NCBI GenBank assembly: GCA_021813445.1
Contig: JAKAKP010000088.1
Location: 1-51,841, forward strand
DNA from: Deltaproteobacteria bacterium
GTDB lineage: Bacteria; Desulfobacterota; Desulfobaccia; Desulfobaccales; 0-14-0-80-60-11
Length of the DNA: 51,841 nt
Direction of reading: 5' to 3'
How positions within the stretch are numbered: the stretch's first letter is position 1; each line of letters begins with the position of its first letter. Below are positions 7,022 through 23,773 of this stretch, in pieces. Below the pieces are notes generated by a model, which saw only the letters and a program-made list of their open reading frames with translations, was not told where the DNA came from and ran no database searches. Made by a program: the position numbers and the translations under genes.

Positions 7022-9721
7022 CTAATCATTCTGGATTTTCTCAGGGTTCTCGGCCTCATCCGCCGGCCCCAATATTTTTTTCCCTCCCGTAGAGATCGCG
7101 GCCGGAGTCCCTTGGGGCATATCCAATACCTTGCGTACCCGGCTGGCCAGGATATTGGGGGTAAAGGGCTTAGCCAGAAAGGCTATGCCCGGGTCCAGCA
7201 CCCCATGATGGGAGATGGCATTTTCCGCGTAGCCGGAGATATACAAGACCTTCATCTCCGGGTAGCGGGCAGTCAGTTGTTCCGCCAGCTGCTTGCCGCT
7301 CATGCCGGGCATTACCACGTCGGTGAGAAGTAAATGGATGTGGCCTTCCATTCCTTCACAAATAGTCAGCGCCTCTTTAGGGCTCGCGGCCGTGATAACC
7401 TGGTAGCCGTTCTGCTCCAACGCGGCGCAGGCCAATTCCCGCACCACTTTCTCGTCTTCCACCAACAGGATGGTTTCCCAGCCCTGCCGGTAAGCACTGG
7501 TTTCCGGCCGGGATTTTTCCACTTCCAGGGCGGAAGTGGCCACGGGCAGGTAGAGCTTGAAAGTAGTGCCCCATTTGGGCTCGCTGTAAACCCAGATATA
7601 GCCGCCGCTCTGCTTGACGATGCCGTAAACCGTGGACAGGCCCAGACCCGTGCCCTGGTTGCTGCCTTTGGTGGTAAAAAAGGGCTCGAAGATGTGGGCC
7701 ATGGTCTCTTCGTCCATGCCCTCCCCGTTATCGCTTACTGCCAGCATGACATAAGCGCCGGGCTGGAAGTTGACGTCCCGGTAGCCATAGGCCCCATCCA
7801 ACTCCACGTTGGCCGTCTCAATGGTCAGCTTGCCACCATTGGGCATGGCATCCCGGGCGTTGACCGCCAGATTGATGACCACCTGCTCGATCTGCGCGGG
7901 ATCGGCTTCCGCCGACCCCAACCCGGCCTCCAGGTTGGTGACCAGATAGATGTCTTCGCCGATTAACCGTTGCAGGAGCTTCTCCATGTCCCGCACCACG
8001 GTATTGAGGTTAAGTTTTTTGGGCTGCAAAATCTGTTTGCGGCTGAAGGCCAGCAACTGCCGGGTCAGGGACGCGGCCCTCTCCCCTGCTTTCCTGATTT
8101 CTTCCACTTCCCGGCGTTGGGGGTCTTGGGGGTCGCTGCGCACCAACAAAAGTTCGGCATAACCGATAATGCCGGTGAGGAGATTATTGAAGTCATGGGC
8201 CACGCCACCCGCGAGCCGTCCCACGGCTTCCATCTTCTGGGCCTGGAGAAGCTGTGCCTGGCTTTGGCGCAGGGCCTCCTCGGTTTCTTTGGTGTGGGTG
8301 ATGTCATAGAAGACGCCGCTGATATAGGCAAAATCTCCCTGAGTATCGCAGATGATCTGGCTTCTTTCCTGGATCCAGATGATTTTGCCGTCCTTGGCCT
8401 TGATCCGGTATTCACGAGTATAGGATCTCGTCCCCTTCAATGCTGCCGTAACCACTTTTTGGGCGCCGGGGAGATCCTCCGGGAGGATCAGATTCGACCA
8501 TTTTAAGAGTCGGGAATCGAAATCCTCTTTAAGGTAACCGGTCATGCCCTCGATCTTGCCATCGAAGAAATCCACCGTCCAATCGCCGTAACCCGTAAAG
8601 ACCAGAGCCGGGATATTGCTCACCAGCAGACGGTATTGTTCTTCACTTTCCCGGAGCGCTTCAGCCGCGCGCTGCCGCGTCGTCACATTTTTCAGGGAGA
8701 GAACCAGGAATTCCACCTCTGCCTGTTTGTTCAAAATGGGAACTAAGGTCCAGTCCCAATAAGTCACGCCCCACTCGGGATGATCCGGGAAAGTATAAGG
8801 CCGGGCAAAGGTCTGGTAGGCCGTTTTGCTGGCCACGGCCTTGGCAAAAACGTCCCGGGCCAGGCTGGGATAAAGATCAAAATGATTCTTGCCGGGAAAA
8901 TCGGAGACGTCCCGCTGCGCAGCCCGGGCGTAAGCCTGGTTCACCCGGATATAATTGAAATTACGGTCCAGGACGACCAGGGGGGTGATGGTGTGCTCAA
9001 AGAAGGCATCCAGGAGCCAGGATTTTGCCAACAGCTCTTCTTCCGCGTTCTTGCGGGCCGTGGAGTCATTGCCGATGCATAATATTTCGCTAAGCTGCCC
9101 CTTCTCATCCCGGATGGCCTTGTAGGTCCAGGCGACCCAGGCCCTTTCCCCATGGCGGCGCAAGTGTTCGTTTTCACCATTGGGGTACTCCTCCGGATAA
9201 GCCAAGAGTTGCGCCATCGCCCCGGCCAGGTCCCGGCCCTGGCTGTCGGTGGCCGGCACAATGGTGCCCACCGCCGCCCGGTCCAGGATCTCCTCTTCGG
9301 TATAGCCGAAGAAAATCTGGGCAAACTCGTTAAAAAAGGTGATCCGCCCTTGGGGGTCCAGACGCATGATAATACTGTTGGCGTTTTCCACCAGTTCCCG
9401 GTACTTGGCTTCACTCCGGGCCAGGGCGTCGTTGGTGCGTTGGATGGAGCGGAACAGGGGGGCGATCCAGGCGATGCCTAGAAGCAGGAGGGCCGAAGTG
9501 GCCAGGGCCACCCACTCAATGGTGATGGGTGCAAGTAGGATCGGCCCCGTAATTTCCGATTGCCAATAGCTGAGGGCCCGGCGCAGGGCCATGAGCAGCA
9601 GGGCCACCGTGATCAGCCACCAGGCCAGGCGGCGTCCGGTAACCGGAATCAACCGCAGCGCCAAAATGGCCGCCACCCCTTGTAAAACTATAGATAATAT
9701 CAGAATGGTGCTGACTTCCAT
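7022..9721 (-). CDS. Membrane hybrid sensor histidine kinase with three PAS domains
   Basis: Predicted membrane-bound kinase. Three hydrophobic segments near the N-terminus (about 4-24, 33-48, 67-90) leave no large extracytoplasmic domain, so sensing is probably through the membrane part or the cytoplasmic PAS domains at about 102-225, 230-355 and 360-485. The phosphoacceptor is His509 in VAHDFNNLL; the ATPase domain carries [11 protein letters not shown] (690-700); a receiver domain ends the protein with Asp801. The third PAS and everything after it closely parallel the kinase at 103-2739, differing mainly in the sensor part. ATG 9721 is used. A tail of about 30 polar residues after the receiver is not part of a known domain. 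Both kinases lack an output domain. Confidence 0.93.
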
Positions 9722-9829
9722 ACTAGCCTCGTTCGATCATTTTCCCTTAATAAACATCTAAAACCGGGGGCCCCGGAAATCCGCCCTCCTTAAACGCACC
9801 GCTGATAGCGTTCAAAGGAAGAAAAACAT

Positions 9830-9937
9830 GTGAAAATTATCACTAGAAGGCCCTACGATTATATATATGCCGCGAGTTCTCGTGGTTATCAAAGCTTGCT
9901 GGAGGTTCTCCTAGAAAATGGAGTGAAAGAGGGGTAG
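9830..9937 (+). CDS. Possible 35-residue small protein (weak)
   Basis: A GTG ORF with an AAGGAAG ribosome-site-like sequence about 9 nt upstream (product begins VKIITRRPYD). No family is recognised. It is divergent from the kinase at 7022-9721. Such an ORF can occur by chance in this gap, so it is listed only as a candidate. Confidence 0.2.
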   Translation: MKIITRRPYDYIYAASSRGYQSLLEVLLENGVKEG

Positions 9938-10338
9938 ATTCAGGGATTCCAGTAAGTTGAAATTATCGAGGTGACTGCGGGTGCTGATTAACGTGCTGAG
10001 ATTCCCGGCCTCCGATTAGAGAATTATAGTAATATAGTATAGTTAATTAAAACAATTGGTTATTTAAAATTAGGCCCTACAACTTGTTAGGAAATTGTTA
10101 ATATTATGCATGATTTTCCTTAAATATACAAGTCTGCCAAATAAAAATATCTTAGTTTCAATGTATTGTGCATTTTAAGATTTAATTTAACTTAATTTCA
10201 TAATTCATGAACAATCTTTTAAATTCTTGGGCATGGATTTAATTTGGTGCAGTTCCCCTCGTGCTCCGGCTTCCTGGGAAGGATAGCGGAGATGTTCCGG
10301 TTTATTTATTGGGGTTAGCTATAAGGGCCCTCGGCGAG
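9938..10338. other. AT-rich gap between kinase and radical SAM operon
   Basis: About 400 bp with no convincing gene. The part from 10015 to 10250 is extremely AT-rich compared with the GC-rich flanks, with many TTAA and AATT steps. No repeat family of the kind seen later is present. It is the 3' end of the ten-gene minus-strand run, and I could not find a clear stem plus T-tract terminator for that run here. Confidence 0.5.
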
Positions 10339-11940
10339 TTAAGGCTGCTCCCCCTCTACTTCTTTTCGCCGTCCCTGGGCGATGGCCGTGACCTTTTCCC
10401 GGACGATCCCCCGCATATTGATCAAGTCCAGGCTCATGGCGCAGGCCATCAGGTAACTTTTAATCCTGCTGGGATTTTGCCTCCACATCCCCAACAACTG
10501 TTCCCAGAACTGAAGGCGGGACGGCAAACTGATTCCATGCCACCAAAGGATCTTAATAAAGCCCAGGATCTCATAGAAACCTTTCCGCCAAGACATCTTT
10601 CTGTCAGGGAGATCGCGTCCCGGCGGCGGCTTCTGGTTAGCTGCGGCCAAAGCCCGGCGCGTCGGCCGCATATCCAGGTAGAAACGGTAGGCCCTCCCCA
10701 GAAAACGGGAAGGTTCGTAGAGATATTCCCAGGCATCCAAATATTCTTGCAAAATCTCTGCTTCCGGCCGATCCGGATGATAATTCATGGCGCCGAAGGT
10801 TCCCCCCCAGTCGGGAAGCACATCACTGCGCAGCCTTCCTTCTTTTTTCAATCGTTTCGCCAGCTTGCTATTTGGCGGCACTTGCAGTAGCCCGAGCATG
10901 GCTATGGGGATGGCAGCCTGTTCCATAAAAGCACAGATTCGCTGGCCCACACCCTGGGTCTCCCCGTCAAGTCCGAAGATAAAACTACCCATCACGGTCA
11001 TGCCGTTGCGTTTGATATTGTTGACCGATTCCAACAAGGGGTTCCGGATATTGTGGTACTTGCCGCTGATATTGAGCGCGGTCACATCCGGAGACTCGAG
11101 GCCGATAAAGACATTTCCCAGGTTAGCCTCGGTCATGAGGTCGATCATTGCCAAATCCTGGCCGAGATCCACAGACGCTTGGGTCTGAAACACGAAGGGC
11201 GCACCCCTGCTATCGGACCAAAGGAGCAATTCCTGCAAGAGCTCCCGGGCGTACTTCTTACTGCCGATAAAGTTGTCGTCGCAAAAAAACACATTCCCTG
11301 TCGCCCCCAGCCTTCGAAGGTTTTCCAATTCGGCGATGACCTGCCCGGGGGTTTTGTGTCGGAGTCTTCTCCCGAAGAGGCTCACCACATCGCAAAATTC
11401 GCAGTCAAAAGGGCAGCCCCTGGTGGTCTGAATGGCTAAGTGGGCATAGTCGTTTATCCGCAACAGGTCAAACCTAGGAATCGGCGATGTAGTCAAATCT
11501 GGCTTCTCCTGGCTTTCGATCACTCCGGTCCTGCCTGCTCGCATAGCCTGCAGCAGCAATGGAATCGTGTTCTCCCCTTCCCCTCGCACCACGAAATCGC
11601 ATCCCGCAGCCAGGGCCTCTTCAGGCAGGGAAGTCGGATACGGTCCTCCGGCCACCACGGTTTTCCCCCGTTGTTTGCCTTCCCTAACCAAGGCCAGGAA
11701 GCCTTCCTTCTGGATGTACATAGAAGAAAGCAAAATCACATCGGCCCACTGCCAATCCTCTCCCTTCATCCCGCCGGTGTTGAGATCAGCCAAACGCAGT
11801 TCCCATTCTGCCGGCAACAGCGCGGCCACCGTGAGCAGACCCAAAGGGGGCAGACTGGTCTTGGCGCCCATCAGTGCGCTGCATCTTTGGAAACTCCAAA
11901 AGGAAAGGGGAAATTCTGGACAGATCAACAAGGCCCGCAT
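10339..11940 (-). CDS. B12-binding radical SAM protein, HpnP-like (third of three in operon order)
   Basis: An iron-sulfur enzyme with an N-terminal cobalamin-binding-type domain (1-150, beginning with the PPLGLLTVAALLP motif of this family), a radical SAM core with the cluster motif Cys176/Cys180/Cys183 in RGCPFDCEFC, and a C-terminal region resembling DUF4070. The FCDVVSLFGR and FFCDDNFIG stretches are those of the family that includes the hopanoid C-2 methylase HpnP. It is expected to methylate or otherwise remodel an unactivated carbon, probably in a lipid. It is separated by 177 bp from the next paralog upstream (12118-13662), a wider gap than others in the run, so it may be partly independent. 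The substrate cannot be read from sequence. Confidence 0.85.
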   Translation of the reverse strand: MRALLICPEFPLSFWSFQRCSALMGAKTSLPPLGLLTVAALLPAEWELRLADLNTGGMKGEDWQWADVILLSSMYIQKEGFLALVREGKQRGKTVVAGGPYPTSLPEEALAAGCDFVVRGEGENTIPLLLQAMRAGRTGVIESQEKPDLTTSPIPRFDLLRINDYAHLAIQTTRGCPFDCEFCDVVSLFGRRLRHKTPGQVIAELENLRRLGATGNVFFCDDNFIGSKKYARELLQELLLWSDSRGAPFVFQTQASVDLGQDLAMIDLMTEANLGNVFIGLESPDVTALNISGKYHNIRNPLLESVNNIKRNGMTVMGSFIFGLDGETQGVGQRICAFMEQAAIPIAMLGLLQVPPNSKLAKRLKKEGRLRSDVLPDWGGTFGAMNYHPDRPEAEILQEYLDAWEYLYEPSRFLGRAYRFYLDMRPTRRALAAANQKPPPGRDLPDRKMSWRKGFYEILGFIKILWWHGISLPSRLQFWEQLLGMWRQNPSRIKSYLMACAMSLDLINMRGIVREKVTAIAQGRRKEVEGEQP

Positions 11941-11999
11941 TATGTTATTTCTCCTGCCTCCCGGCGATACCGCAGCTTATGGCGCCGGGGGCGATCGTA

Positions 12000-12034
12000 T
12001 TGGGTTAAGTGCTTCTTCGCTGCGCTCAGAATGA
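12000..12034. repeat. Solo fragment of the CTTCGCTGCGCTCAGAATGACA repeat family
   Basis: The gap between two radical SAM genes contains a short sequence ending CTCAGAATGACA that matches one arm of the 126-128 bp elements at 33395, 41870 and 46575. It is the only such repeat inside the lipid-type operon. Confidence 0.5.
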
Positions 12035-12117
12035 CAATTCCAGGTCTAAACTCGGTTCGAAAAGTTGTGGGAGTAACTGCACCTGCTCAAGCTGGAAAAT
12101 ATAGGAGACAACGATAC

Positions 12118-13662
12118 TTATGCCATTCTATCCCGTCGCTGATACATATTTTCCCCGACTACGCAAAGAAGTAAGTATCTCCTCAGCCGGCTGGGATTGC
12201 GGCGATAGATATCCGCTAGTTGCCGCCAGAATTGTCCCCGGAAATCCGCCTGTACTCCCTGTCGCCATAAAAATTTGAAGATCGCGCTTAATACCCGGAA
12301 GCCGGTTGGTTTTCCTGAAGTGCCATCTTCTCGCACTGGCCGGGACTGCCTTTCCTCCTCCAACCCCAGGGCTTTGCGGGTGGGGCGCATGGCCAGAATA
12401 TGGCGGTGGGCGCGGCGCAAAAAGTTTGAAGGTTCGCAGAGATAGCTAATCCCCCGGGCATATTCCGCCAGGATCTCCTCTTCGGAGCGGGTGGGGAGAT
12501 AATTGAGGCGGCCCCCCTCCATGTCGCCGCTGGTCATATCCTCCCGCAGACGCCCTTCCTTCTGCAGACGGCGCCATAGGGCAGTGTTGGGAAAGACCTG
12601 GAGAGTGTTCAGAGTCACCAGGGGAATATGGTTGCGCTCCACAAAGGCGCAAATGCGATCCACCGCTCCTGATTCTTCCCCGTCAAAACCGATCATAAAA
12701 CTGGCCATCACACCCAGGCCCCGGGTCATCATGTTGGCCAGTGATTGATCCAATGGATTCTGAATATTCTGGTGTTTCCGGGTAGTCGCCAGCACCTTGG
12801 TGTCGGGTGTCTCCACCCCCACAATGACGGAGACGAAATTTGCCGCAGTCAGCAGGTCAACCAAGCCCGGGTCCTGCCCTAAATTGATGGAGGCCTGGGT
12901 CCAGAAATCGAAGGGTTCGCCACGGTTCTTCATCCAGGGAATGAGTTTCTCCAGAAAGGCAGTGACAAGAGCCTTATTGCCGATGAAATTGTCATCCGCG
13001 AAAAAGACATCGCCCCGCCAGCCGATCTGATAAAGAGCCTCCAGTTCAGCCAGCACCTGGTCGGCTTCTTTGTAGCGGGGCTTACGGCCATAAAGCTCTA
13101 CAACGTCGCAGAATTCGCATTGGAAAGGACACCCCCGGGAAGTCTGCAGGCACATGGTGAGATAATCAGAAGGGCGGACCAGGTCATAGCGAGGCAGAGG
13201 GGAAGCAGTCATCTCCGGCTTACCAGAAGTCTCCAGCACCATATGGACTTTACCATCCTCAAGAGCCTTGAGCAGCTCATCCACCAGGTTTTCTGCCTCG
13301 CCCCGGACCAGGAAATCCGCACCCGCAGCCAACACTTGCTCGGGCACCGAGCTAGCGTAAGGCCCGCCTATCACCATGGTTTTTCCCCTGGCCTTCCCTT
13401 CCTGGATGAGGGCCAGGAGGCTGGTTTTCTGGGCCAGCATGCCGGTCAGCAACACCATATCGGCCCATTGCCAGTCTTCCTCGGTTAGGGGACGTGTATT
13501 TAAATCCGCCAGGCGCAGTTGCCATTCAGGGGGAAGCAGCGCGGCCACGGTCAGCAGCCCTAAAGGGGGGGCCATGGCTCGGGCGCCCTGGTACTCCAGG
13601 GAAGGTTTAAATGACCAGAATGAATCGAGATACAGTGGGTTGACGAGCAGCGCTTTAGTCAT
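12118..13662 (-). CDS. B12-binding radical SAM protein, HpnP-like (second of three)
   Basis: Paralog of the genes on either side with the same layout: cobalamin-binding-type domain (1-150), radical SAM core with Cys178/Cys182/Cys185 in RGCPFQCEFC, FFADDNFIGN, and a DUF4070-like C-terminus with the AMRPTRKALG stretch. It begins 13 bp after the stop codon of 13676-15235, so the two are almost certainly co-transcribed. The three copies have diverged well beyond a recent duplication, which suggests different positions or substrates rather than dosage. A role in lipid tailoring is inferred from HpnP relatedness and from the synthase and acyltransferase genes upstream. Confidence 0.86.
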   Translation of the reverse strand: MTKALLVNPLYLDSFWSFKPSLEYQGARAMAPPLGLLTVAALLPPEWQLRLADLNTRPLTEEDWQWADMVLLTGMLAQKTSLLALIQEGKARGKTMVIGGPYASSVPEQVLAAGADFLVRGEAENLVDELLKALEDGKVHMVLETSGKPEMTASPLPRYDLVRPSDYLTMCLQTSRGCPFQCEFCDVVELYGRKPRYKEADQVLAELEALYQIGWRGDVFFADDNFIGNKALVTAFLEKLIPWMKNRGEPFDFWTQASINLGQDPGLVDLLTAANFVSVIVGVETPDTKVLATTRKHQNIQNPLDQSLANMMTRGLGVMASFMIGFDGEESGAVDRICAFVERNHIPLVTLNTLQVFPNTALWRRLQKEGRLREDMTSGDMEGGRLNYLPTRSEEEILAEYARGISYLCEPSNFLRRAHRHILAMRPTRKALGLEEERQSRPVREDGTSGKPTGFRVLSAIFKFLWRQGVQADFRGQFWRQLADIYRRNPSRLRRYLLLCVVGENMYQRRDRMA

Positions 13663-13675
13663 GGGTTTAGGGCCT

Positions 13676-15235
13676 CTAGGTTTGCAACACGTTTTCCCGC
13701 ACCTGCCGCCGGAACGCGAACAGAGTTTCCCCCAGCGCGCAATGATTCAGGTAGCGCATCTTGCGGCTGGGGTTTTTTTGGAGGACCGTCAGTAATTGTC
13801 TCCAGAATTGCCCCCGGAAGGAGGGCCGGATTCCCTGCCGCCAGATCAGCCTCAATAAAGGGCCAAGCCATTGTTGTTTGATGGTTTTCTGGGTTGAGTC
13901 CCGTGGGCCCGCGACCCCTTCTGTTTTTTCCTCGACGCCCAGGGCGCGCCGCGTGGGGCGCATATGCAAGATGACCTCCAAGGAGCGGCGCAGATAAGCA
14001 GACGGCTCATAAAGCCGCTCAATGGCCTGGCGGTACTCTGCCAGGATTTCCGCCTCCGGCCTGGTGGGGATGAAGTTGATTTCCCTGCTGGAGATGTCGC
14101 CGGCCGCGCCTTTTCCCTCCAGAAGCCGGCCTTCCTCCTGAAGACGCCGCCAGAGGCTGGTGTTGGGGATGGCCTGGAGGAGATTCACCATGACCATGGG
14201 AATATGAAGTTCCTCCACAAAATTGCGGATACGCTCCCCCGCCCCCGTTTCTTCGCCGTCAAAACCGATAATAAAGCTGGCAACCAGGGAAAGACCGTTT
14301 TTATTAATCGCCTCCAGAGATTCCGCCAGGGGGTTGCGGAGATTGTGGTATTTCCGGCTTAATCCCAAAGATGCAGCGTCAGTGGATTCCACGCCCACGA
14401 AGACGAAGCCGAAATTGGCCGCGGTCATCTGGTCCATCAACTCCTGGTCTTGGCCCAGGTTCACCGAGGCCTGCGTCCAAAAGCCAAAGGGTTCACCGTG
14501 GCTTTTCATCCAGGGCGTCAGTTGCTCCAGGATCGCCAGGGCATGTTGCCGGTTGCCGATAAAATTGTCGTCGCTGATAAATATCCCTTTGCGCCAGCCC
14601 AGGCGGTAAACAGCTTCCAGTTCCCTGATCACCTGCTCCGGCTTCTTATACCGGGGTTTGCGGCCGAAAAGGCTGACCACGTCGCAAAATTCACAGTCAT
14701 AAGGGCACCCCCGGGAGGTTTGGATGCTCATTATCGTGTAATCTTCAAGACTCAGTAGATCGTAGCGGGGAACGGGCGACATGCTCATCTCCAGCTTGCC
14801 GTCCTCCTGGAAAACCCCCTGCTTTTCCCCCGCTGCCAGGGCCGCCAGAAAACGGGGCATGGTGCCCTCCGCCTCTCCCCGGAAGAGAAAATCCGCGCCG
14901 GCGTCCAAAAGGTCCTGGGACAGGGAGGTGGCGTAAGGGCCGCCCACGGCCACGGCCTTCCCCCGGGACTTGGCGTCACGGATCAGGGAGATCATGCTCT
15001 CCCGCTGCGCCAACATCCCGGTGATCATCACCAGGTCTGCCCAGTTCCAGGCCTCAAGGGGCAGCGCCTGGGTATTCAGGTCCACCAGCCGCAATTCCCA
15101 GGCCGGGGGAAGGAGCGCGGCCACGGTGATCAGTCCCAGGGGCGGGGCCAGGGCCTTGGTGCCGTCAACCTGAATACTTTCCTTTAAGGTCCAAAATGAA
15201 TAGGGAAACCGAGGGTTGAGCAGCAAGGTTCTCAT
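13676..15235 (-). CDS. B12-binding radical SAM protein, HpnP-like (first of three)
   Basis: The first-transcribed of the three paralogs. It has the PPLGLITVAALLP N-terminal motif, the cluster motif Cys177/Cys181/Cys184 in RGCPYDCEFC, the ISDDNFIGN stretch and the DUF4070-like end (HMRPTRRALG). It starts 14 bp after the stop of the membrane protein gene at 15250-17088. By analogy with HpnP, such enzymes use methylcobalamin and S-adenosylmethionine to modify sp3 carbons; some relatives join carbon chains. Which reaction applies here is unknown. Confidence 0.86.
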   Translation of the reverse strand: MRTLLLNPRFPYSFWTLKESIQVDGTKALAPPLGLITVAALLPPAWELRLVDLNTQALPLEAWNWADLVMITGMLAQRESMISLIRDAKSRGKAVAVGGPYATSLSQDLLDAGADFLFRGEAEGTMPRFLAALAAGEKQGVFQEDGKLEMSMSPVPRYDLLSLEDYTIMSIQTSRGCPYDCEFCDVVSLFGRKPRYKKPEQVIRELEAVYRLGWRKGIFISDDNFIGNRQHALAILEQLTPWMKSHGEPFGFWTQASVNLGQDQELMDQMTAANFGFVFVGVESTDAASLGLSRKYHNLRNPLAESLEAINKNGLSLVASFIIGFDGEETGAGERIRNFVEELHIPMVMVNLLQAIPNTSLWRRLQEEGRLLEGKGAAGDISSREINFIPTRPEAEILAEYRQAIERLYEPSAYLRRSLEVILHMRPTRRALGVEEKTEGVAGPRDSTQKTIKQQWLGPLLRLIWRQGIRPSFRGQFWRQLLTVLQKNPSRKMRYLNHCALGETLFAFRRQVRENVLQT

Positions 15236-15249
15236 GAGTTGTTCCTTAA

Positions 15250-17088
15250 TTAATTCTGGGGAAGACCTTTTCCCCGGAGAAAGGATCTTGTATCAATCAC
15301 CCGCTGATTCTTATCCACCACCATAGCTGGAAAGTTTCCAGGTTGCAACAAAACAAAGTCGCGCCGTGCCTTTATCTGTCTGCGGATTGCGGCGTCGAAA
15401 GGCGCAAAAAAAGGACAATCCACCCGCTCCGCGGTTCTTGGGCCCTCGGTCTGCAAAGGCGGATTAAATGGGGTCAGGTAGCGCCCCCCGGCCAGAAACT
15501 CGGGAGTAAAATGGCGCTTATCCACCACCAGAAAGGAGACCTGATACTTCCGGCAAAAATCCCGGACCACCTGGGGGTCGGCCGCATAATAGGCCTTGAA
15601 GAAATCTTCCAAACGGGGCCTGATTCGCCGCCAGTAGCCCCGGCTCCAAGGATGGGCCAGCTCATAGTTCACCAGGACCTTGCGCTGGGCAAAAGTGGGG
15701 ACGTTGTCCATCAGGTCGGGGTGCCCGGCGATGAGCGCGTCTTTGGGAGTCTGGGCCAGGACGGCGTACAGCGGGCGGTACATGGAAAAGTCTTTCAACC
15801 CTACATCTTTCAGGCGCACCCCCGACCCGATTACCACCAGCGCCACCAGCGCCGCGAGCAGCCACCGGGGCCAGGACCGGAGCCCCAGGGCCTTGTCCAG
15901 ACACAGGGCCAGGCCCAGGCAATAGCAGAGGTTCAGGGTATAGATGAGATAGCGGTCCGGGATAAACAGCTTGAGTAAAAAGATCCGGGCCAGAAAATAG
16001 AGGAGCAGGGAGGAAACCAGCAGATAACCGAAGGGCTGCAGCTTATCTTTCAATACCTGCCAATCAAGGGCCTTTCCTCCCCAAATCACCACCCCTGATA
16101 GCAAGACGCTCCCCAGAACTCCGCCTGTAACCCCCGTATCGAAGGGAGCGATGTCCTTCCAGGGCCCAAGCAATGCCGCCAACAGGGAGGGCACGGGCAG
16201 GATGGCAAAGCGGCCCTGGGCAGCAAATTCCGGGCGATTCGCCATGTCGGCCGCGCTCACCAAGGGGCCGAAGCCCGCGGCGTCGTATTGGTGGTTCATC
16301 AGCCAGACCAAACCTGCGCCCACGGCCACAATGAGCAGGTGGCCCCAGGTGATGCAGGAAGATGCGCCCCCTCTCCTGCCGCGGCCCGCCAGCCAGGCCA
16401 GCACCGTAGCGCCTGCGGCCACCAGAAAGATATAGGGAATAAAGAGGGCCTGGAGCAGCAGGGCCAGGGCTAAGCCCCAGGGACTGCCCGCCAGCCAGCA
16501 CAGGGCATAAAAGGCCAGCAGGGGCGCAGCAAAGGACCGGGCCAGCCCCCCGGACAGGTTGTCCAGGAAGAAGGGCATCAGCCAGTATACCCCGAGGGTG
16601 CACCAGGCCAGCCGCCGGGAGCCCAGGCAGGCGCCGATCCGGAAAAGGCACCAACCCAGAAAGACGAACAACAGCCCCGGCAGCCATTTGGAAAAAATCA
16701 GGGGGCCCACCCCGGCGGCGGGCAGTGGATATAAGCCCTTGCCCCAGAGAGAGAGGCTGATGAAGGATAAGCCCGGCAGCAATTTGGCAAAAGTCTGGGG
16801 CTCCAGCAGGGGGGAGGCCAGCCGGTAAAGTCCCTTTACCCCCCAGGGCACGTAAGCCCGGGCATAAGCAGTCAGCAAATCCCCTTGAAAAAGCCCGGGG
16901 TCCTCCCACTGCTGCATCCAATAAATCTGCTGCCGCACGTCATCATTGATGACCCAGTGGTTGGTCAAAGCCTGGAAATGGGCAAAAACAAAGATAGCCG
17001 CGGAAAGGATGATTACCAGAACCCGGTCAGTCCAGGGGGTAGTGGCCGGCAGCCGGGCAGCGGCAGCGGGGTTAGATTTCCTTTTCAA
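15250..17088 (-). CDS. Polytopic membrane protein, GT-C glycosyltransferase-like
   Basis: 612 residues with about ten or more hydrophobic segments in the first 430 and a soluble C-terminal part of about 180. The first extracytoplasmic loop has an NDD acidic motif near residue 50 (NHWVINDDVRQQ), the place where GT-C fold glycosyltransferases carry their metal or substrate acid residues. A lipid-linked sugar or phosphate transferase acting outside the inner membrane is the likely role, but I do not recognise a named family. It overlaps the 3' end of the acyltransferase gene by 17 bp, indicating translational coupling in the same operon. A transporter without catalytic function cannot be excluded. 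Confidence 0.6.
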   Translation of the reverse strand: MKRKSNPAAAARLPATTPWTDRVLVIILSAAIFVFAHFQALTNHWVINDDVRQQIYWMQQWEDPGLFQGDLLTAYARAYVPWGVKGLYRLASPLLEPQTFAKLLPGLSFISLSLWGKGLYPLPAAGVGPLIFSKWLPGLLFVFLGWCLFRIGACLGSRRLAWCTLGVYWLMPFFLDNLSGGLARSFAAPLLAFYALCWLAGSPWGLALALLLQALFIPYIFLVAAGATVLAWLAGRGRRGGASSCITWGHLLIVAVGAGLVWLMNHQYDAAGFGPLVSAADMANRPEFAAQGRFAILPVPSLLAALLGPWKDIAPFDTGVTGGVLGSVLLSGVVIWGGKALDWQVLKDKLQPFGYLLVSSLLLYFLARIFLLKLFIPDRYLIYTLNLCYCLGLALCLDKALGLRSWPRWLLAALVALVVIGSGVRLKDVGLKDFSMYRPLYAVLAQTPKDALIAGHPDLMDNVPTFAQRKVLVNYELAHPWSRGYWRRIRPRLEDFFKAYYAADPQVVRDFCRKYQVSFLVVDKRHFTPEFLAGGRYLTPFNPPLQTEGPRTAERVDCPFFAPFDAAIRRQIKARRDFVLLQPGNFPAMVVDKNQRVIDTRSFLRGKGLPQN

Positions 17089-18241
17089 AGATGCGGAAAG
17101 TCTTGTAATGCTCGGCGCCGACGAACCTGAAGGCCCTGATGTAGTGCTTCAGGTTCTCCGGAATCAGGGAAAGGTCGACGAATTCCAAAGGGGTTTCCCG
17201 GGCCCCGTCCACGTAACTCTTGAGGATCAGGGCATGGTGCAGCTTCCGCCCCTGGTAGCGCTGCCGCACTCCCAGCACCAAGGCCCGGGCCTTCTTGACG
17301 GGCTGATATTTGGCTGCATAAAGGAGACGCAACTTCTTCCAGAGGGACAATCTCCCGTTAAAAGTCTTCACCAGGGGATTGAGATCGGGAAGAACGATGG
17401 AGAATGCTACCAAATCGTCCCCATCCAACAGGAGCTTCACTAAATTAGGACGCAGTAAGGGCTTTAGCTCTTCATAAAACGCATTAAATTGCTTACGGGT
17501 GAGGGGAATGTGGCACCAGTTGGAGCTCCAGGCCTCATTAAAGAGCTCATAGACTTCTTCCCGCCGCCGCTCCAGGTCCCGGGGGTTCAGTCGCTCCAGC
17601 CGCAGATTCTGGCCCTGGAGAATTTCCTCGATTTTCGCTTCCAGGGGCTCCAGCGGGAACCGTTGCGTCAGACGCAGGGCATAAAAATCAAAGGTCTTGC
17701 GAAATGCGAGTTCCTCTAAAAATTGGACATAGTACGCCGGATTATGGGTCTGGAACATGGCCGGGATGGAATCGAACCCCTCCACCAGCAGCCCCACTTC
17801 ATCATAAATGGAGAAGCTCAAGGGGCCTAAGAGCCGCGTCCGGCCCCGCTCCCGCAACCATGCGGCCGCGGCTTCGAAGAGGGCCGCAGCCACCGGGGGT
17901 TCCTGGATGCATTCGAAAAATCCGAAGAATCCGGTTATCCGGTCATACCGCGCATCATAAAGGCGGTTGATGTGGGCGGAGATGCGCCCTGCAGGCCGCC
18001 CTTCGTAATAGGCCAGGAAATATTGGGCCTCACCATTCTCGAAGAAAGGTCCCTGCTTGGGATCCAGGAAGGCCCGTTGGTGTTCCAGGAGGGGTGGCAC
18101 CCAAAAGGGGTCGTTTTGGTAGATACGCCAGGGGAGACGGAGAAATTCCTCCATTTCTCCTTCCCCCTGCACGGGAATGACTCGGATGTCGCTCGGTTTA
18201 TCAGTGGAAGGCACAGGATTAACGGGGTTTGCGCACGACAA
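17072..18241 (-). CDS. YghO/bacterial ceramide synthase-like N-acyltransferase
   Basis: 389 residues with the features of the GNAT-fold YghO family: an N-terminal RIYQNDPFWVPPL stretch, FLAYYEGRPAGRISA near residue 90, and LLGPLSFSIYDEVGLL near 140. The bacterial ceramide synthase of Caulobacter has been placed in this same broad family (from memory), where it attaches an acyl chain to the sphingoid amine. Its presence in one operon with a serine-palmitoyltransferase-like enzyme strongly suggests the same job here. It overlaps the adaptor gene upstream by 23 bp and the membrane protein downstream by 17 bp. ATG 18241 is used. A generic N-acetyltransferase role is the alternative. Confidence 0.7.
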   Translation of the reverse strand: MSCANPVNPVPSTDKPSDIRVIPVQGEGEMEEFLRLPWRIYQNDPFWVPPLLEHQRAFLDPKQGPFFENGEAQYFLAYYEGRPAGRISAHINRLYDARYDRITGFFGFFECIQEPPVAAALFEAAAAWLRERGRTRLLGPLSFSIYDEVGLLVEGFDSIPAMFQTHNPAYYVQFLEELAFRKTFDFYALRLTQRFPLEPLEAKIEEILQGQNLRLERLNPRDLERRREEVYELFNEAWSSNWCHIPLTRKQFNAFYEELKPLLRPNLVKLLLDGDDLVAFSIVLPDLNPLVKTFNGRLSLWKKLRLLYAAKYQPVKKARALVLGVRQRYQGRKLHHALILKSYVDGARETPLEFVDLSLIPENLKHYIRAFRFVGAEHYKTFRIFEKEI

Positions 18242-19214
18242 TGCGCACTTTCATGCCCTCTTTGAGGGTCAGGTCGGGGTTAGGCACTTGGACTTCCGCT
18301 TCATAGTAAGAGGGCTGTTCCAGACCCGGCTTGAGCGGCACCCAGGAAAGACGGCTGATCCGGGCCTCAAATTTGCGCCCCGGAAGGGACTCCGGGTAGA
18401 TTTCCGCCAGGTCTCCCACCCGCAGCCGCAAGGACTCCATTTCGTGGACCTGGCCTTTGACCACCAGGGGGTCCATTACTCCTACCTGAAAGGCCACGGT
18501 ATTGGGCGCCAGTTCGGCGTCTACCCGCAGATCTGGGTGCACAAAGAGCACATAACCGTTAATGGGGGCCTTAAGGACCGCCTCTTTCGGCAAGTGGGCG
18601 GCACTCATGGATTTGCCCATCTCGTGCTTTAAGATCTGCAGGTCTTCAGAAGCTAATTCCTGTTCCTGGTGCAGGTTGGCCTGCACGGCATTCCGCTGCT
18701 TTGACAGCTGGTTGTAATCTTTTTGGGCCTGGGCCAAGGCCTGGGCGGGAGCCAGTTTTTGGGCCGCCAACTGGCTGATCTCCCGGCGTTTGGCCGCGGC
18801 CTGGTCCAGGGCCCTTTGCACGTCGGCCAGCCGCATTTCCAGGTCTTTGATTTGGGGCGGGGACAGGCGCCGCCGCAGCTTCATGGTGGCCTCTGGAGTA
18901 AGGCGATATCGGGCCAGAACCTCTCCCGCCTTGACCTGCTGCCCGGCCTGCACCTGAAGGGAAGTGATGATGCCACCGAAAGGCATGATCACCTGCCGCT
19001 TGAGGGGACAGGAAAATTTCCCCATAAAAGAAATTTCATGCTCCGGGGCTGCCACCGGAGGGGGCGTCTTGACCTTACTTTCTCCAGCCGCCTTCTCCGA
19101 GCTGTTGCCCCTGGAGGCGAGGCCCCCCAGAGCCAGAAAGGTCAGAAAGACAGCTCCGGCAAGCCAGACAGCCCGTTTATTGCTGCCAAGAATTCGCATC
19201 CACATAGCTCGCAT
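18219..19214 (-). CDS. HlyD/MacA-type periplasmic adaptor subunit
   Basis: 331 residues: an N-terminal membrane anchor (about 13-32), a biotinyl-lipoyl-like first half (IMPFGGIITSLQVQAGQQVKAG), a predicted coiled coil rich in Gln/Ala/Lys at about 105-190, a second lipoyl half (VLKAPINGYV) and a beta-barrel region. It would link the inner-membrane ABC transporter to the TolC-like channel. ATG 19214 has a GGAG site 6 nt upstream and overlaps the TolC-like gene by 38 bp. It belongs with the permease, ATPase and channel genes upstream as a four-part export machine. Cargo is inferred, not shown. Confidence 0.88.
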   Translation of the reverse strand: MRAMWMRILGSNKRAVWLAGAVFLTFLALGGLASRGNSSEKAAGESKVKTPPPVAAPEHEISFMGKFSCPLKRQVIMPFGGIITSLQVQAGQQVKAGEVLARYRLTPEATMKLRRRLSPPQIKDLEMRLADVQRALDQAAAKRREISQLAAQKLAPAQALAQAQKDYNQLSKQRNAVQANLHQEQELASEDLQILKHEMGKSMSAAHLPKEAVLKAPINGYVLFVHPDLRVDAELAPNTVAFQVGVMDPLVVKGQVHEMESLRLRVGDLAEIYPESLPGRKFEARISRLSWVPLKPGLEQPSYYEAEVQVPNPDLTLKEGMKVRIVVRKPR

Positions 19215-20586
19215 CCAAGTCTCCAGAAAGTTGCCGCAGCCTGATTACCGCCAGATTGTAGTCCAGGTCCTTAAGAAAAGCGTTTTTCTGGGACTCCATC
19301 AGTCCCTTGCGCCCGTCCAGATATACAGCCAGAGGTTCTCCGCCGGAATGATAACGGATATCGGCCTGCCGTTCTTTGAGGCGCGCCAGTTCTTCCTGGG
19401 CTTGGGCCGATTTCCGGGAAGCATCCGCGGACCGTACGTTTTCCTGGGCCTCCTGCCACTGGTCGGTCAGGAGCAGCCCTTTCTCTTTCGTTTCCGCCTC
19501 AAATTCTCTCATGATGGTTTTCTGCCGGGAGACATTGCGCAAACGTTTAAATCCGTCCCAAACCGGCACTTCCAGCCCCATGGAAACAAACAGGCCCCGG
19601 GAAGAGGAACTTAAGGGGTCAGGAGTCTGGGCGCCCATGAAAAAAGAGGGAAGTAATTTGGCCTTGGCCAGCAAAATATTATACCTTTGCAGCTCTTGCT
19701 TTAGGGCTCCGATCTTGAGCTCGTAAGAATGGTTCTTGGCCTGGTCCAGGCTGGCTGCGGCCGGATCAAAGGCTCCAGTGACCTGGCGCTTCGCATCTTT
19801 GCAGTCCACCTCCAGAGACTGGCCTGGTTTCATGCCGATGAAGGCCTGCAAATTATCCCGGAGCCGCTTCTGGGAATAGGCAATATGTTCTTTTTCGGCC
19901 TGGGCTCCGGCCAACTCCTGCTCGGCCACCTTGAGCTCCAGAGAGGTGACGGTGCCCAACTGCATCCGCTTTTGTAAAAAAACCAGATTCTGCCGGTTTA
20001 GATCGATGAGGTCATCCTGACGGGCCGCGGCTTTTTGCAGGGCCTCCATCTCCAGGTACATCTTGGCCAGTTTGCGGATCCCTTCGGAAATGACTTGCAT
20101 ATGGGCCAGTATGGCTATTTGCGTAATTATCTTCCTGGCCTGCAGGCTGAAATAGGACTCAATGGGATTATAATTGCTGCTGACAAAATTCAGGGAATAA
20201 GCCTTGCTGCTGATATCCCGGGGCTGGTTGACATAGTATTGGGTGCGGAAGGTTACGGGGGGGATGAATTCATACTTGCTGTCTTTTTCATCCAGCCGTT
20301 TGACCTCAATTTCCAGGGAACTTTTGGTGAAATAAGGGGACTTCCTGATGGCCAGCCGCACCGCTCGATCAAAGTTCAGGGGACCGGTGACGGCTTCGGC
20401 CTCCTGCGTGCCGGCCCCGCTGGCGGCTTCATTGCCTTGGGCCGTCAACACCGCGGCCCCCAGGGCCGTTGCCAGAAAAATCACCGCCAGGGCAAAGGAA
20501 ACCTTTCCCCGCAACCGCGCCCTAGTCTTCCCCGGGTGCGGCCTTGTTGGGCTCTGGCTGGCCGCATTCCCAGGATCAATTTTCAT
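19177..20586 (-). CDS. TolC-family outer membrane efflux protein
   Basis: About 469 residues with a signal-anchor-like segment (about 30-50) and two repeated halves of long amphipathic helices typical of TolC. ATG 20586 is preferred to the longer reading from 20643: it overlaps the TGA of the ATPase gene (20576-20578) by 11 bp, and the peptide MKIDPGN is followed by the export signal. An unusually long polar stretch of about 28 residues precedes the hydrophobic part. It probably forms the outer-membrane duct for the adjacent MacA/MacB-like pump. Confidence 0.87.
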   Translation of the reverse strand: MKIDPGNAASQSPTRPHPGKTRARLRGKVSFALAVIFLATALGAAVLTAQGNEAASGAGTQEAEAVTGPLNFDRAVRLAIRKSPYFTKSSLEIEVKRLDEKDSKYEFIPPVTFRTQYYVNQPRDISSKAYSLNFVSSNYNPIESYFSLQARKIITQIAILAHMQVISEGIRKLAKMYLEMEALQKAAARQDDLIDLNRQNLVFLQKRMQLGTVTSLELKVAEQELAGAQAEKEHIAYSQKRLRDNLQAFIGMKPGQSLEVDCKDAKRQVTGAFDPAAASLDQAKNHSYELKIGALKQELQRYNILLAKAKLLPSFFMGAQTPDPLSSSSRGLFVSMGLEVPVWDGFKRLRNVSRQKTIMREFEAETKEKGLLLTDQWQEAQENVRSADASRKSAQAQEELARLKERQADIRYHSGGEPLAVYLDGRKGLMESQKNAFLKDLDYNLAVIRLRQLSGDLDASYVDANSWQQ

Positions 20587-21283
20587 TGAGGATGCCGTCT
20601 TCCAGAGAAAATACGCGGGTACAGCGGGAAGCCACTTCCGCATCGTGGGTCACTACGATCAAGGCAGTATCTCCGGTAGCCACGATCTGTTCAAAATGCT
20701 CCATAACCATGTGGCCGTTAGCGCGATCAAGATGGCCGGTGGGTTCGTCAGCCAGGATGACCAGGGGTTGATTGACCAGGGCCCGGGCAATTGCCACCCG
20801 TTGTCGTTCTCCCCCGGAAAGGTAATTCGCCGGATGATGGATCCGGTGGGCCAGGTTCACCCTCTCCAGGGCCGCCAGGATTCTCGCGGGCCGTTCCTGG
20901 CGCTCGACTTTGGCGTACACCAGGGGGAACTCCAGGTTTTCATAGACCGTGGAGTTTTCAAACAGGTCGCAATTCTGAAAGACAAAGCCCACCCGCCGGC
21001 GGCGAAACTCCGCTTGGGCCGCCCGGCTCAAGTCGAGCATATTCTGCCCCATAAACTGATAATTTCCTGAGGAAGCCGGCAGCAGCAGCCCCAGAATAAA
21101 AAGCAGGGTGGACTTGCCCGAGCCGGAGGGGCCCATCACCGCCAGCATCTCTCCCGGGCGCACTTCCAGGTTGACGCCCCGGAGCACAGGGATGACCCCG
21201 TGGCCGTTGCTGTAATGCTTGGACAGGCGAGTGACCTGGATCAAAGGGCGGTCATTCCGGGCGGCAACAAATTCCTTACTCAT
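20576..21283 (-). CDS. MacB/LolD-type ABC transporter ATPase
   Basis: 235 residues with Walker A GPSGSGKST (51-59), signature LSGGERQRVAIARAL and Walker B ILADEPTGHLD. It is the stand-alone ATPase of the MacB/LolD family, which uses ATP to drive a mechanical cycle moving substrates from the periplasm or inner membrane outward. The permease is a separate gene, not fused as in E. coli MacB. Its ATG overlaps the stop codon of the permease gene by 8 bp. Related LolD complexes move lipoproteins, so lipid cargo would be within the family's range. Confidence 0.92.
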   Translation of the reverse strand: MSKEFVAARNDRPLIQVTRLSKHYSNGHGVIPVLRGVNLEVRPGEMLAVMGPSGSGKSTLLFILGLLLPASSGNYQFMGQNMLDLSRAAQAEFRRRRVGFVFQNCDLFENSTVYENLEFPLVYAKVERQERPARILAALERVNLAHRIHHPANYLSGGERQRVAIARALVNQPLVILADEPTGHLDRANGHMVMEHFEQIVATGDTALIVVTHDAEVASRCTRVFSLEDGILNEN

Positions 21284-22508
21284 AGCGAATGGCGCTTACC
21301 ACTTCCATCCGGCTGGCCTGCAGGGAGGGATAAATCCCCGCAGCCACCCCCAGTCCCACAGCCACCAGGAGTCCCAAGATGACGCACATCAGAAACAGAC
21401 CCTGTCCCGGATGGCTGTGGATCATTAAACTGGTGACCTCCACGGACACCCACCCCAGAGCGCTGCCCAACAGGGAGGCGGCCACGCTGAGGCATACGGC
21501 CTCTGCCAGGAACTGGGCCATAATGGCCTGATCCTCAGCGCCCATGGCCTTTTTCAAGCCGATTTCCCGGGTGCGGGAGCGGACCGCGGCCATCATCACC
21601 GTCCAGATGCCCACTCCTCCCAGAATCAAGGTGGCCACAATGGAACTGTAAATGAACAACTCCACCCACCAGGCTATCGCCTTTACCCGCTGCAGTTGAT
21701 CCCAAAGCACCTCCACCTTGAGACCTTGTACCGGCTGCACCGCCAGAATGGCTCCAGGAATAAGAGGCGCAACTTTCTCCACGTCTTCCCAGGTGCGGCA
21801 CCGCAAATAAATGCGGTTCGCCGGGCTGACCCCTTGGATGCGGTCTTCGGCGGTGGTCAAAGGCACAAAGGCAAAATGGGTGTAATCCCCCAGCCCCGCA
21901 CCGTTTAAAACGGCAGTTACCGTGTAGAGTTCTTGCTGAATGGAGATTTTGGAACCCTTAACATCTTTACGGCCAAAAATGCTGCGGGCCAATTCCGAAC
22001 CTAAGATGACCACCCGCTTGCGGTCTTTCATGTCCTGGGCGGTGAAAAACTGGCCTTTCCCGGGGGATAGGCCGTTGACCTTCCAGAAGGATTCATCCAC
22101 CCCCAGCATGGAGCAGTTGAAATCTTGCCCTTCCCAACTGCCGACCACCCAGGGATGGTGTACCGTCAGGCTCGCATCCCTCACCCCCGGCAGCTTCCGC
22201 AAAGCCTCCACCGAAGAGGAATAAAACCATTGATGTTCAAAGGAGGGACGCCTATCGAAGTAAACCCGGATAAGAGTAGCTTTGCCCAGCAGTTCCAGAT
22301 CGTGGTTAAAATTTTTCTTAAGGTCCCGGCCCATGGTGATAATGGTGATGAAACCGGCGGTGCCGATGGCGATAGCCAATATTACCCCCCAATAGCGCCG
22401 CCGGTGGCGCAACAACTGCCGGATGCTGACCCGCATTAAGTCACCGAGTCTCACAGGAAAAGATCTCCTCATTATAACTCGGCAAAAATCTTTGATTTCT
22501 CGAATCAA
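21276..22508 (-). CDS. MacB/FtsX-type ABC transporter permease
   Basis: 410 residues with the MacB layout: one membrane segment near residues 40-62, a periplasmic domain of about 220 residues, then three membrane segments (about 290-312, 335-360, 375-398). The end SLQASRMEVVSAIRYE is the conserved MacB/FtsX C-terminus. TTG 22508 overlaps the synthase stop codon (TTGA); internal ATG codons at 22472 or 22436 are alternative starts. It forms the membrane part of the pump with the ATPase, adaptor and TolC-like protein downstream. Confidence 0.88.
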   Translation of the reverse strand: MIREIKDFCRVIMRRSFPVRLGDLMRVSIRQLLRHRRRYWGVILAIAIGTAGFITIITMGRDLKKNFNHDLELLGKATLIRVYFDRRPSFEHQWFYSSSVEALRKLPGVRDASLTVHHPWVVGSWEGQDFNCSMLGVDESFWKVNGLSPGKGQFFTAQDMKDRKRVVILGSELARSIFGRKDVKGSKISIQQELYTVTAVLNGAGLGDYTHFAFVPLTTAEDRIQGVSPANRIYLRCRTWEDVEKVAPLIPGAILAVQPVQGLKVEVLWDQLQRVKAIAWWVELFIYSSIVATLILGGVGIWTVMMAAVRSRTREIGLKKAMGAEDQAIMAQFLAEAVCLSVAASLLGSALGWVSVEVTSLMIHSHPGQGLFLMCVILGLLVAVGLGVAAGIYPSLQASRMEVVSAIRYE

Positions 22509-23773
22509 ATGCGCAGGCTCTGGGACGAAAAATCGTCTTTTGCCAGAAAAGGCTCTCGACCTTCTAAATCCCTAGACCGGATCCGGTGTTTTCTGGCCAG
22601 CCGATCCAGGACTTCGAGGACGAATTCTATCTGCCGATCTTCATGAGTGCTCATATAGGCAGTACGAATCACGGCTTGTCCTTTGGGTACCGCCGGGAAA
22701 ATGGCTGGCAGGGCAAACACGCCTTCTTGGAACAGGTCCCGGGCAAAATCAAAGGCCTTCTGGTCGTCCCCGATATAGATAGGAATGATGGGGGTTTTGG
22801 AGTCCTTAGTAATGAGACCGATCTCGCGGTAGCCGGCATGCACTCTTCTGGCAATCTCCCAAAGGCGGCTCACCCGCTCCGGTTCTTTTTCCAATACGTC
22901 CAGGCAACCCAGCACCGTGGCTGCATTACTGGCAGGCAAAGCCGCGGAAAAGATCAGGGGCCGGGAGTTGTGGCGCAAATATTCCAGGACATCTTCATCG
23001 TCCGCGGCAATGAACCCCCCCACCGACGCCAGGGCCTTGCTGAAAGTGCCCATGATGAAGTCCACCTGGCTGCTCAGGCCGAAGTGGGCCACTGTGCCCC
23101 GGCCACCGGGACCCATCACCCCCAAACCATGGGCATCGTCCAGATAGATGAGCAGGTCCGGATATTCCGCTTTCAATCGCACCAGTTCTGGTAGAGGAGA
23201 CATATCACCGGACATGCTGAACACCCCTTCGGTGATCAGCAGCACCAGGGATTGGCTGTTTTTCTCCTTGATGGAAGCGAGTTTCCGAACTGCGGCCTCA
23301 ACATCGTTATGGGCAAAAGGGATCAGGCGGGCCCGGGAGGCCTGGCAACCTTCAAAGATGCTGGCATGGTTTTCACGGTCGCACAAGATGACATCTTGAG
23401 GCGTCAGCAAACAGGCGATGGCTCCCAGATTGGTGCTGAAGCCGGTGACGTGCACCACCGCTTTCTTCTTGTGGACGAAAGCCGCCAGACGCTCTTCCAA
23501 GACTTCATGCAAAACCAGATTGCCGCAAAGGAATCGGGACCCCCCCGCCCCTGTGCCCCATCTGCGCATGGCCTTTGCGGATGCTTCCATTACCCGGGGG
23601 TCATGGCTCAATCCCAGGTAATCGTTAGAACCGATCATAACCAACCGTCGTCCGTCCACTTCCACCTCAGTCCCCCAGGACCGGGATAACGGACGGAAAT
23701 AAGGGTAATAACCCTCATTTTTGGCGGATTGCACGTGGCGCGCGAAAGGTTGGCAGCGAGTTTTTAGAGACAT
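22505..23773 (-). CDS. Alpha-oxoamine synthase, serine palmitoyltransferase-like
   Basis: A PLP enzyme that condenses an amino acid with an acyl thioester. Lys246 in TFSKAL should bind PLP; LDDAHG (211-216) and His136 fit the fold. The N-terminal GYYPYFRPLS, the VMIGSNDYLGL stretch and GTGAGGSRFLCGN resemble bacterial serine palmitoyltransferases more than BioF or KBL, as does the 422-residue length with a C-terminal tail. It is the first gene of the minus-strand run and has its own promoter. The acyltransferase of the YghO type in the same operon supports a sphingoid-base product. BioF-like activity is the alternative, but no biotin genes are near. Confidence 0.8.
   Translation of the reverse strand: MSLKTRCQPFARHVQSAKNEGYYPYFRPLSRSWGTEVEVDGRRLVMIGSNDYLGLSHDPRVMEASAKAMRRWGTGAGGSRFLCGNLVLHEVLEERLAAFVHKKKAVVHVTGFSTNLGAIACLLTPQDVILCDRENHASIFEGCQASRARLIPFAHNDVEAAVRKLASIKEKNSQSLVLLITEGVFSMSGDMSPLPELVRLKAEYPDLLIYLDDAHGLGVMGPGGRGTVAHFGLSSQVDFIMGTFSKALASVGGFIAADDEDVLEYLRHNSRPLIFSAALPASNAATVLGCLDVLEKEPERVSRLWEIARRVHAGYREIGLITKDSKTPIIPIYIGDDQKAFDFARDLFQEGVFALPAIFPAVPKGQAVIRTAYMSTHEDRQIEFVLEVLDRLARKHRIRSRDLEGREPFLAKDDFSSQSLRI

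Follow-up and report, generated by a model that had tools for sequence, protein, structure and literature searches.

Proteins of the HpnP and HpnP-like family are defined by three domains, B12-binding, Radical_SAM and DUF4070 (PMC10697835). The HpnP-like proteins are widespread, a function is known for the HpnP clade alone, and the reaction on record for a DUF4070 protein is the C-methylation of a lipid (PMC10697835). Which lipids are the other members acting on? We analysed three such genes, here called A, B and C, which lie in tandem in a stretch of 51,841 nucleotides (contig JAKAKP010000088.1 of assembly GCA_021813445.1, from a Deltaproteobacteria bacterium of the order Desulfobaccales; this whole stretch is the window). 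We slightly favour the reading that A, B and C tailor the lipid made by a ceramide (sphingolipid)-type pathway. The ceramide-type lipid class is itself well supported, because the operon in which the three genes lie also encodes a serine palmitoyltransferase (Spt)-like enzyme and a ceramide synthase (bCerS)-type enzyme. A reading made earlier from the sequence alone had proposed a lipid as the likely substrate, and these two neighbours bear it out.

The tandem HpnP-like genes reported at 10339-15235 by this sequence-only reading, with intact CxxxCxxC motifs, proved to be exact open reading frames. B12-binding (PF02310), Radical_SAM (PF04055) and DUF4070 (PF13282) all exceed the Pfam cut-offs in A, B and C, so that under the published domain definition (PMC10697835) their sequences make HpnP-like the correct family name. 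The motif reads CPYDCEFC, CPFQCEFC and CPFDCEFC in the three proteins, and the 4.18 Mb genome has no full-length DUF4070 protein besides them. Are they three copies of one enzyme? Their pairwise identities are only 50%, 54% and 48% over about 510 amino acids (aa), against the 71-77% that each protein shares with its orthologues from congeneric species. In a careful maximum likelihood tree of 57 proteins, A groups with proteins of loci L126 and L134, B with L140, and C with L134, L126 and L124, all with 100/100 support (L numbers denote loci and G numbers genomes). Forcing A, B and C into one clade was rejected by the approximately unbiased (AU) test on constrained topologies (p = 5e-71). As each groups with its own orthologues and a single clade is rejected, A, B and C are old separate lineages whose divergence predates the genus. 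Dosage by recent tandem duplication is ruled out by the same tree and test, and the divergence that had been claimed from the sequence holds; neither near-identical copies in relatives nor membership of a known non-lipid family was found. The ratio of nonsynonymous to synonymous substitution rates (dN/dS) is about 0.2 for A, B and C, each against its own orthologues, which indicates purifying selection. Fifteen otherwise conserved columns are fixed differently in the three proteins, mostly in B, and could be interpreted only with a substrate at hand.

A, B and C are the last three of ten same-strand genes running from 23773 to 10339, with intergenic distances of -68 to +177 bp, a setting that the sequence-only reading had not noted. 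This operon is well supported; a promoter and terminator scan inside it gave nothing above shuffles. The first gene encodes an alpha-oxoamine synthase whose best NCBIfam model is SerpalmtaseCFB (438 bits, below the cut-off of 640) and whose best match among solved structures is the Sphingobacterium-type serine palmitoyltransferase (SPT) 3a2b (E 8e-102, 344 bits, compared with 204 for BioF 1bs0 and 225 for Kbl 1fc4). It is the only Spt-like gene of the genome. The sole other close oxoamine synthase homologue precedes a hydrolase gene and, by that neighbour, looks like bioF. The sixth gene encodes a protein that aligns over its full length with Escherichia coli YghO (30% identity over 377 aa) and with a homologue in a Sphingomonas plasmid cluster containing spt, acpR, cerR and lptFG (31% over 343 aa), and its structure model has a tandem GNAT fold. 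YghO is the counterpart of Caulobacter CC_1154 (PMC9386255), which in the literature is the proposed ceramide N-acyltransferase bCerS. We infer that the window protein is a bCerS orthologue; the operon copy is the single one in the genome. Between bCerS and A lies a gene for a multi-pass membrane protein, for which no Pfam or NCBIfam match was obtained. It is possibly a GT-C-type glycosyltransferase, given a DD motif behind the first of its numerous hydrophobic segments, and it keeps its operon position in L124, L126, L134, L150 and L154.

How well is the association with bCerS conserved? The operon is conserved within the genus and recurs in a second genus of the family, with one to three radical SAM genes as its last members. 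The gene order is spt...bCerS-mem-A-C in L134 (mem being the membrane protein gene), mem-A-C in L126, bCerS-mem-X-C in L124, and spt-macB-lolD-tolC-hlyD-bCerS-mem-rSAM in L150, which belongs to the other genus. Counted by genome, A, B and C are all present in the window, A and C in G004 and G002, and a single radical SAM gene in G011, and the operon of G001 ends in C and a B12 radical SAM gene that lacks DUF4070. In this sister species, the DUF4070-free protein takes the place of enzyme A (L124, 11216-12661, minus strand). Elsewhere in the clade of A, B and C, a Desulfobacterota-dominated group of 27 rows (100/99 support) near the cyanobacterial HpnP-like proteins, four further layouts have bCerS adjoining a radical SAM gene. 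These are L017 and L019, with bCerS beside the radical SAM gene; L018, with bCerS, Spt, a CerR-like epimerase and a GT21-like transferase; L014, with bCerS, an AMP-ligase/acyl carrier protein/Spt fusion, a CerR-like epimerase and a GT2/GT21-like transferase; and L128, L129, L132, L137 and L147, with bCerS and, where the contig reaches, a type I polyketide synthase (PKS) and/or a sulfotransferase gene downstream. Judged by their Spt, CerR-like and glycosyltransferase genes, two of the four (L014 and L018) are ceramide-type clusters. The fusion in L014 is a single open reading frame of 1132 aa (8446-11844, plus strand) combining AMP-ligase, acyl carrier protein and Spt-like parts, which in Caulobacter are the separate proteins AasR, AcpR and Spt.

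Unbiased clustering of the neighbours of 55 loci returned bCerS as the commonest neighbour family (14 loci, 13 of them inside the clade). It adjoins the radical SAM gene in 13 of about 36 clade loci, for a chance expectation that we roughly estimate at 0.4% per locus. Since these loci are related, the five separate layouts are a fairer count than the 13 loci. Outside the clade, the HpnP-like gene of Calothrix (L022) is adjoined by CerR-like, bCerS, Spt-like and Rieske genes. Two more genes of the window have homologues in such surroundings. A radical SAM/SPASM protein (29603-30820, plus strand) could be part of this lipid system, because its homologues recur near Spt-like genes in L018 (63% identity) and L147 (71%). 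A glycosyltransferase (33549-34604, minus strand) has homologues in L017, L018, L019 and L147, all of them bCerS/HpnP-like loci.

Genes of the operon in the window, in order of transcription
Feature	Position	Strand	Matches and remarks
Alpha-oxoamine synthase, serine-palmitoyltransferase-like (gene 1)	22505-23773	minus	SerpalmtaseCFB; SPT 3a2b
MacB/FtsX-type ATP-binding cassette (ABC) exporter permease	21276-22508	minus	PF12704, PF02687
LolD/MacB-type ABC ATPase	20576-21283	minus	TIGR02211, 223 bits; DevA TIGR02982, 174 bits; PF00005
TolC-like outer-membrane efflux protein	19177-20643	minus	PF02321, E 4e-22
HlyD/RND-type periplasmic adaptor	18219-19214	minus	PF16576, PF13437; weak DevB match
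bCerS / CC_1154 / YghO homologue, predicted N-acyltransferase	17072-18241	minus	389 aa, GNAT-like
Multi-pass membrane protein	15250-17088	minus	many hydrophobic stretches in the sequence
HpnP-like B12 radical SAM enzyme A	13676-15235	minus	519 aa; PF02310, PF04055, PF13282
HpnP-like B12 radical SAM enzyme B	12118-13662	minus	514 aa; PF02310, PF04055, PF13282; orthologue L140 in G006
HpnP-like B12 radical SAM enzyme C	10339-11940	minus	533 aa; PF02310, PF04055, PF13282; orthologues at the same operon place in L134, L126, L124

Could the substrate be a hopanoid after all? Among characterised proteins, HpnP is the closest to A, B and C, and one can picture the three methylating hopanoids at positions other than C-2, sharing an operon with ceramide genes since both lipids are bound for the outer membrane. 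The sequence-only reading had stated that no hopanoid gene is near, which is true within the window; the genome does carry a squalene-hopene cyclase, on another contig (C92), as do nearly all relatives in the family. For this last reason, presence or absence of the cyclase within the family is uninformative. The cyclase contig was searched for DUF4070 and has none. Of the 11 genomes with DUF4070 that were sampled in the phylum outside the order, 9 have no cyclase, and three genomes with clade members (L016, L017 and L019) have no detected cyclase, two of them with bCerS adjacent; these are draft bins and count as supporting evidence only. The tree argues in the same direction. Nostoc punctiforme NIES-2108 has three DUF4070 proteins, two in the cyanobacterial HpnP-like group and a third that groups with a Methylobacterium protein, as HpnP would, and it is this third paralogue and its grouping, not an assayed sequence, by which we named the HpnP clade. 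The split between the clade so named and A, B and C has 100/100 support, and the AU test rejected a common grouping (p 9e-6). A, B and C as HpnP proper are ruled out by the tree and the test, with the HpnP clade named in this way. The tree places none of the three diverged lineages in this inferred HpnP clade, and a specific hopanoid tie is not supported. A hopanoid as the substrate is unlikely, and modification at other hopanoid positions from this operon seems to us quite improbable. The earlier lipid idea was right in kind, a ceramide-type lipid being more likely than a hopanoid.

What reaction would A, B and C carry out on a ceramide-type lipid? The AlphaFold model of A (predicted local distance difference test score, pLDDT, 85) has the fold of cobalamin radical SAM enzymes, a B12-binding domain and a radical SAM barrel, and its best matches are AprD4 (Z 27.9), MgmA (24.3), CysS (22.6), OxsB (22.3) and TsrM (22.2). 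Structural matches of this kind span methylation, dehydration, ring contraction and methylthio transfer, and radical SAM lipid enzymes such as the archaeal ring synthases GrsA/B and Tes are known (PMC11868695). One may therefore think of the same lipid and another chemistry, at least one of A, B and C making C-C links, rings or rearrangements of two long chains. Lipid-joining radical SAM enzymes were absent from the structure-match list for A, from which no exclusion follows, and the sequence search of solved structures gave no Tes match at E 1e-3 (GrsA/Mss were not compared directly). We prefer methylation as the reaction of A, B and C, because HpnP, to our knowledge the sole DUF4070 enzyme assayed, is a methyltransferase acting on an unactivated lipid carbon. 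Their reactions are what we infer in this way, and another chemistry on the long chains strikes us as unlikely.

A related question is whether the product is a ceramide in the strict sense. The Spt-like protein stays under the NCBIfam SPT cut-off, its amino-acid substrate is not readable from sequence, the exporter is of a secretion type, and related loci contain PKS and sulfotransferase genes. Sphingolipid production by Desulfobacterota has itself been deduced from Spt-like genes and depth correlations, and those of the Black Sea correlate with 1-deoxy and sulfono-1-deoxy ceramides (PMC11334938). The operon might thus make another N-acyl alpha-oxoamine, such as a 1-deoxy- or sulfono-lipid or a secreted signal, for A, B and C to decorate. 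This we consider rather unlikely, as the closest solved relatives of the Spt-like protein are true SPTs and bCerS is a ceramide-forming N-acyltransferase; it also overlaps largely with a ceramide-type lipid, from which it differs only in head group and role.

Together with the hopene cyclase of the genome, several findings weigh against assigning A, B and C to ceramides. Their clade is known from sequence; cobalamin binding by A, B and C is assumed; and with a dehydratase, AprD4, as the top fold match, a reaction other than methylation is conceivable. A CerR-like gene, found in the related clusters L014, L018 and L022, is missing from the operon, and elsewhere in the genome there are weak partial matches only. 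More than half of the clade loci lack bCerS and many members stand alone. Among 198 genomes of the phylum, bCerS is present in 53 and DUF4070 in 73, and 18 have both, for about 19.5 expected (hypergeometric p 0.75). Only the present genome and G145, whose contig places coincide with those of the L017 genome, had the two genes adjacent. A general link between DUF4070 and ceramide genes was thus looked for in these genomes and not found. Most DUF4070 proteins of the phylum fall in a clade other than that of A, B and C, and by gene content the bCerS link is confined to the latter clade and to this operon, not extending to DUF4070 at large. DUF4070 matches in G222, G119, G079, G129 and other genomes contain one stop codon, of varying type, in a read-through frame; these are probably gene ends. 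Plasmid-borne HpnP-like genes of Komagataeibacter, Bradyrhizobium, Methylocystis and Bosea have no common lipid context, and acyl-AMP ligase neighbours of HpnP-like genes are exceptions (Acaryochloris and a Rhodobacteraceae plasmid).

Within the ceramide-type reading, the following pathway can be envisaged. The Spt-like enzyme would form a 3-keto long-chain base by condensing an amino acid and a long acyl-CoA, the bCerS-type N-acyltransferase would add the second acyl chain, and the membrane protein may glycosylate the lipid. Each of A, B and C would remove hydrogen from unactivated long-chain carbons at its own place and deliver methyl groups there from methylcobalamin, so that the lipid would carry between one and three methyl branches. 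Their modifications, C-methylation or other radical tailoring, could be successive, as the sequence-only reading had suggested, or alternative, and would precede export; given that the number of radical SAM genes per operon varies (one to three), modular tailoring fits no worse than a set sequence of reactions. The finished lipid would be carried to the outer membrane by the tripartite ABC exporter (permease, ATPase, adaptor and TolC). For anaerobes, barred from oxygen-dependent desaturases and hydroxylases, radical SAM methyl branching could serve as membrane tuning. More tentatively, and with somewhat less confidence than we have in the tailoring role as such, the whole clade may be dedicated to ceramide-type lipids, with up to three paralogues per operon in anaerobic Desulfobacterota methylating or joining different carbons of one sphingolipid; the ceramides, multiply branched or spanning the membrane, would then be exported to the outer membrane. 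We know of no precedent in sphingolipids for such ceramides made by enzymes of this kind.

The open literature that we searched holds no paper pairing HpnP with ceramide, nor radical SAM and B12-binding with sphingolipid, and it ties no sphingolipid-type substrate to the HpnP-like family; DUF4070 is mentioned there in just two papers. Through its Spt- and bCerS-type genes, the conserved operon offers a concrete substrate class for one HpnP-like clade. If true, oxygen-independent radical tailoring joins sphingolipid chemistry, and the operon provides candidate genes for the unusual sphingolipids of anoxic waters. An HpnP-like gene would then also not automatically count as a marker of 2-methylhopanoids.

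Compared with described systems, A, B and C share with HpnP the domain architecture, a length of about 500-560 aa and the CxxxCxxC motif; they differ in forming a separate clade, with 32-38% identity to the proteins taken as HpnP, and in being three paralogues in a ceramide-type operon instead of a hopanoid setting. Their nearest large group is that of the cyanobacterial HpnP-like proteins (PMC10697835), at 42-49% identity, which form a clade of their own and, among the loci inspected, have bCerS and Spt-like neighbours only in Calothrix rhizosoleniae. Some of these species have tandem pairs or triples (L062, 8353-13420; L033, 2972-6328; L038, 9953-13221; L042, 8252-11596), independent of the window trio. 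The swf clusters of sponge symbionts (PMC3908369), in which an HpnP-like SwfC accompanies an iterative PKS and a sulfotransferase, resemble L128, L129, L132 and L147; bCerS is not described in them, and the window operon has neither PKS nor sulfotransferase. With the DevBCA-TolC export of heterocyst glycolipids, the operon shares a LolD-type ATPase, an FtsX-type permease, an HlyD-type adaptor and a TolC-type channel, the similarity to the Dev models being weak to moderate and below their cut-offs. The ceramide clusters of Caulobacter (CC_1154 and CC_1162-1165), E. coli BL21 (yghO) and Sphingomonas likewise combine Spt-type and bCerS-type enzymes with lipid transport genes nearby. By comparison, the window operon has a Bacteroidota-like Spt, does without AcpR, AasR and CerR, carries a MacB/LolD/TolC/HlyD-type exporter in place of LptF2G2, and adds three HpnP-like enzymes.

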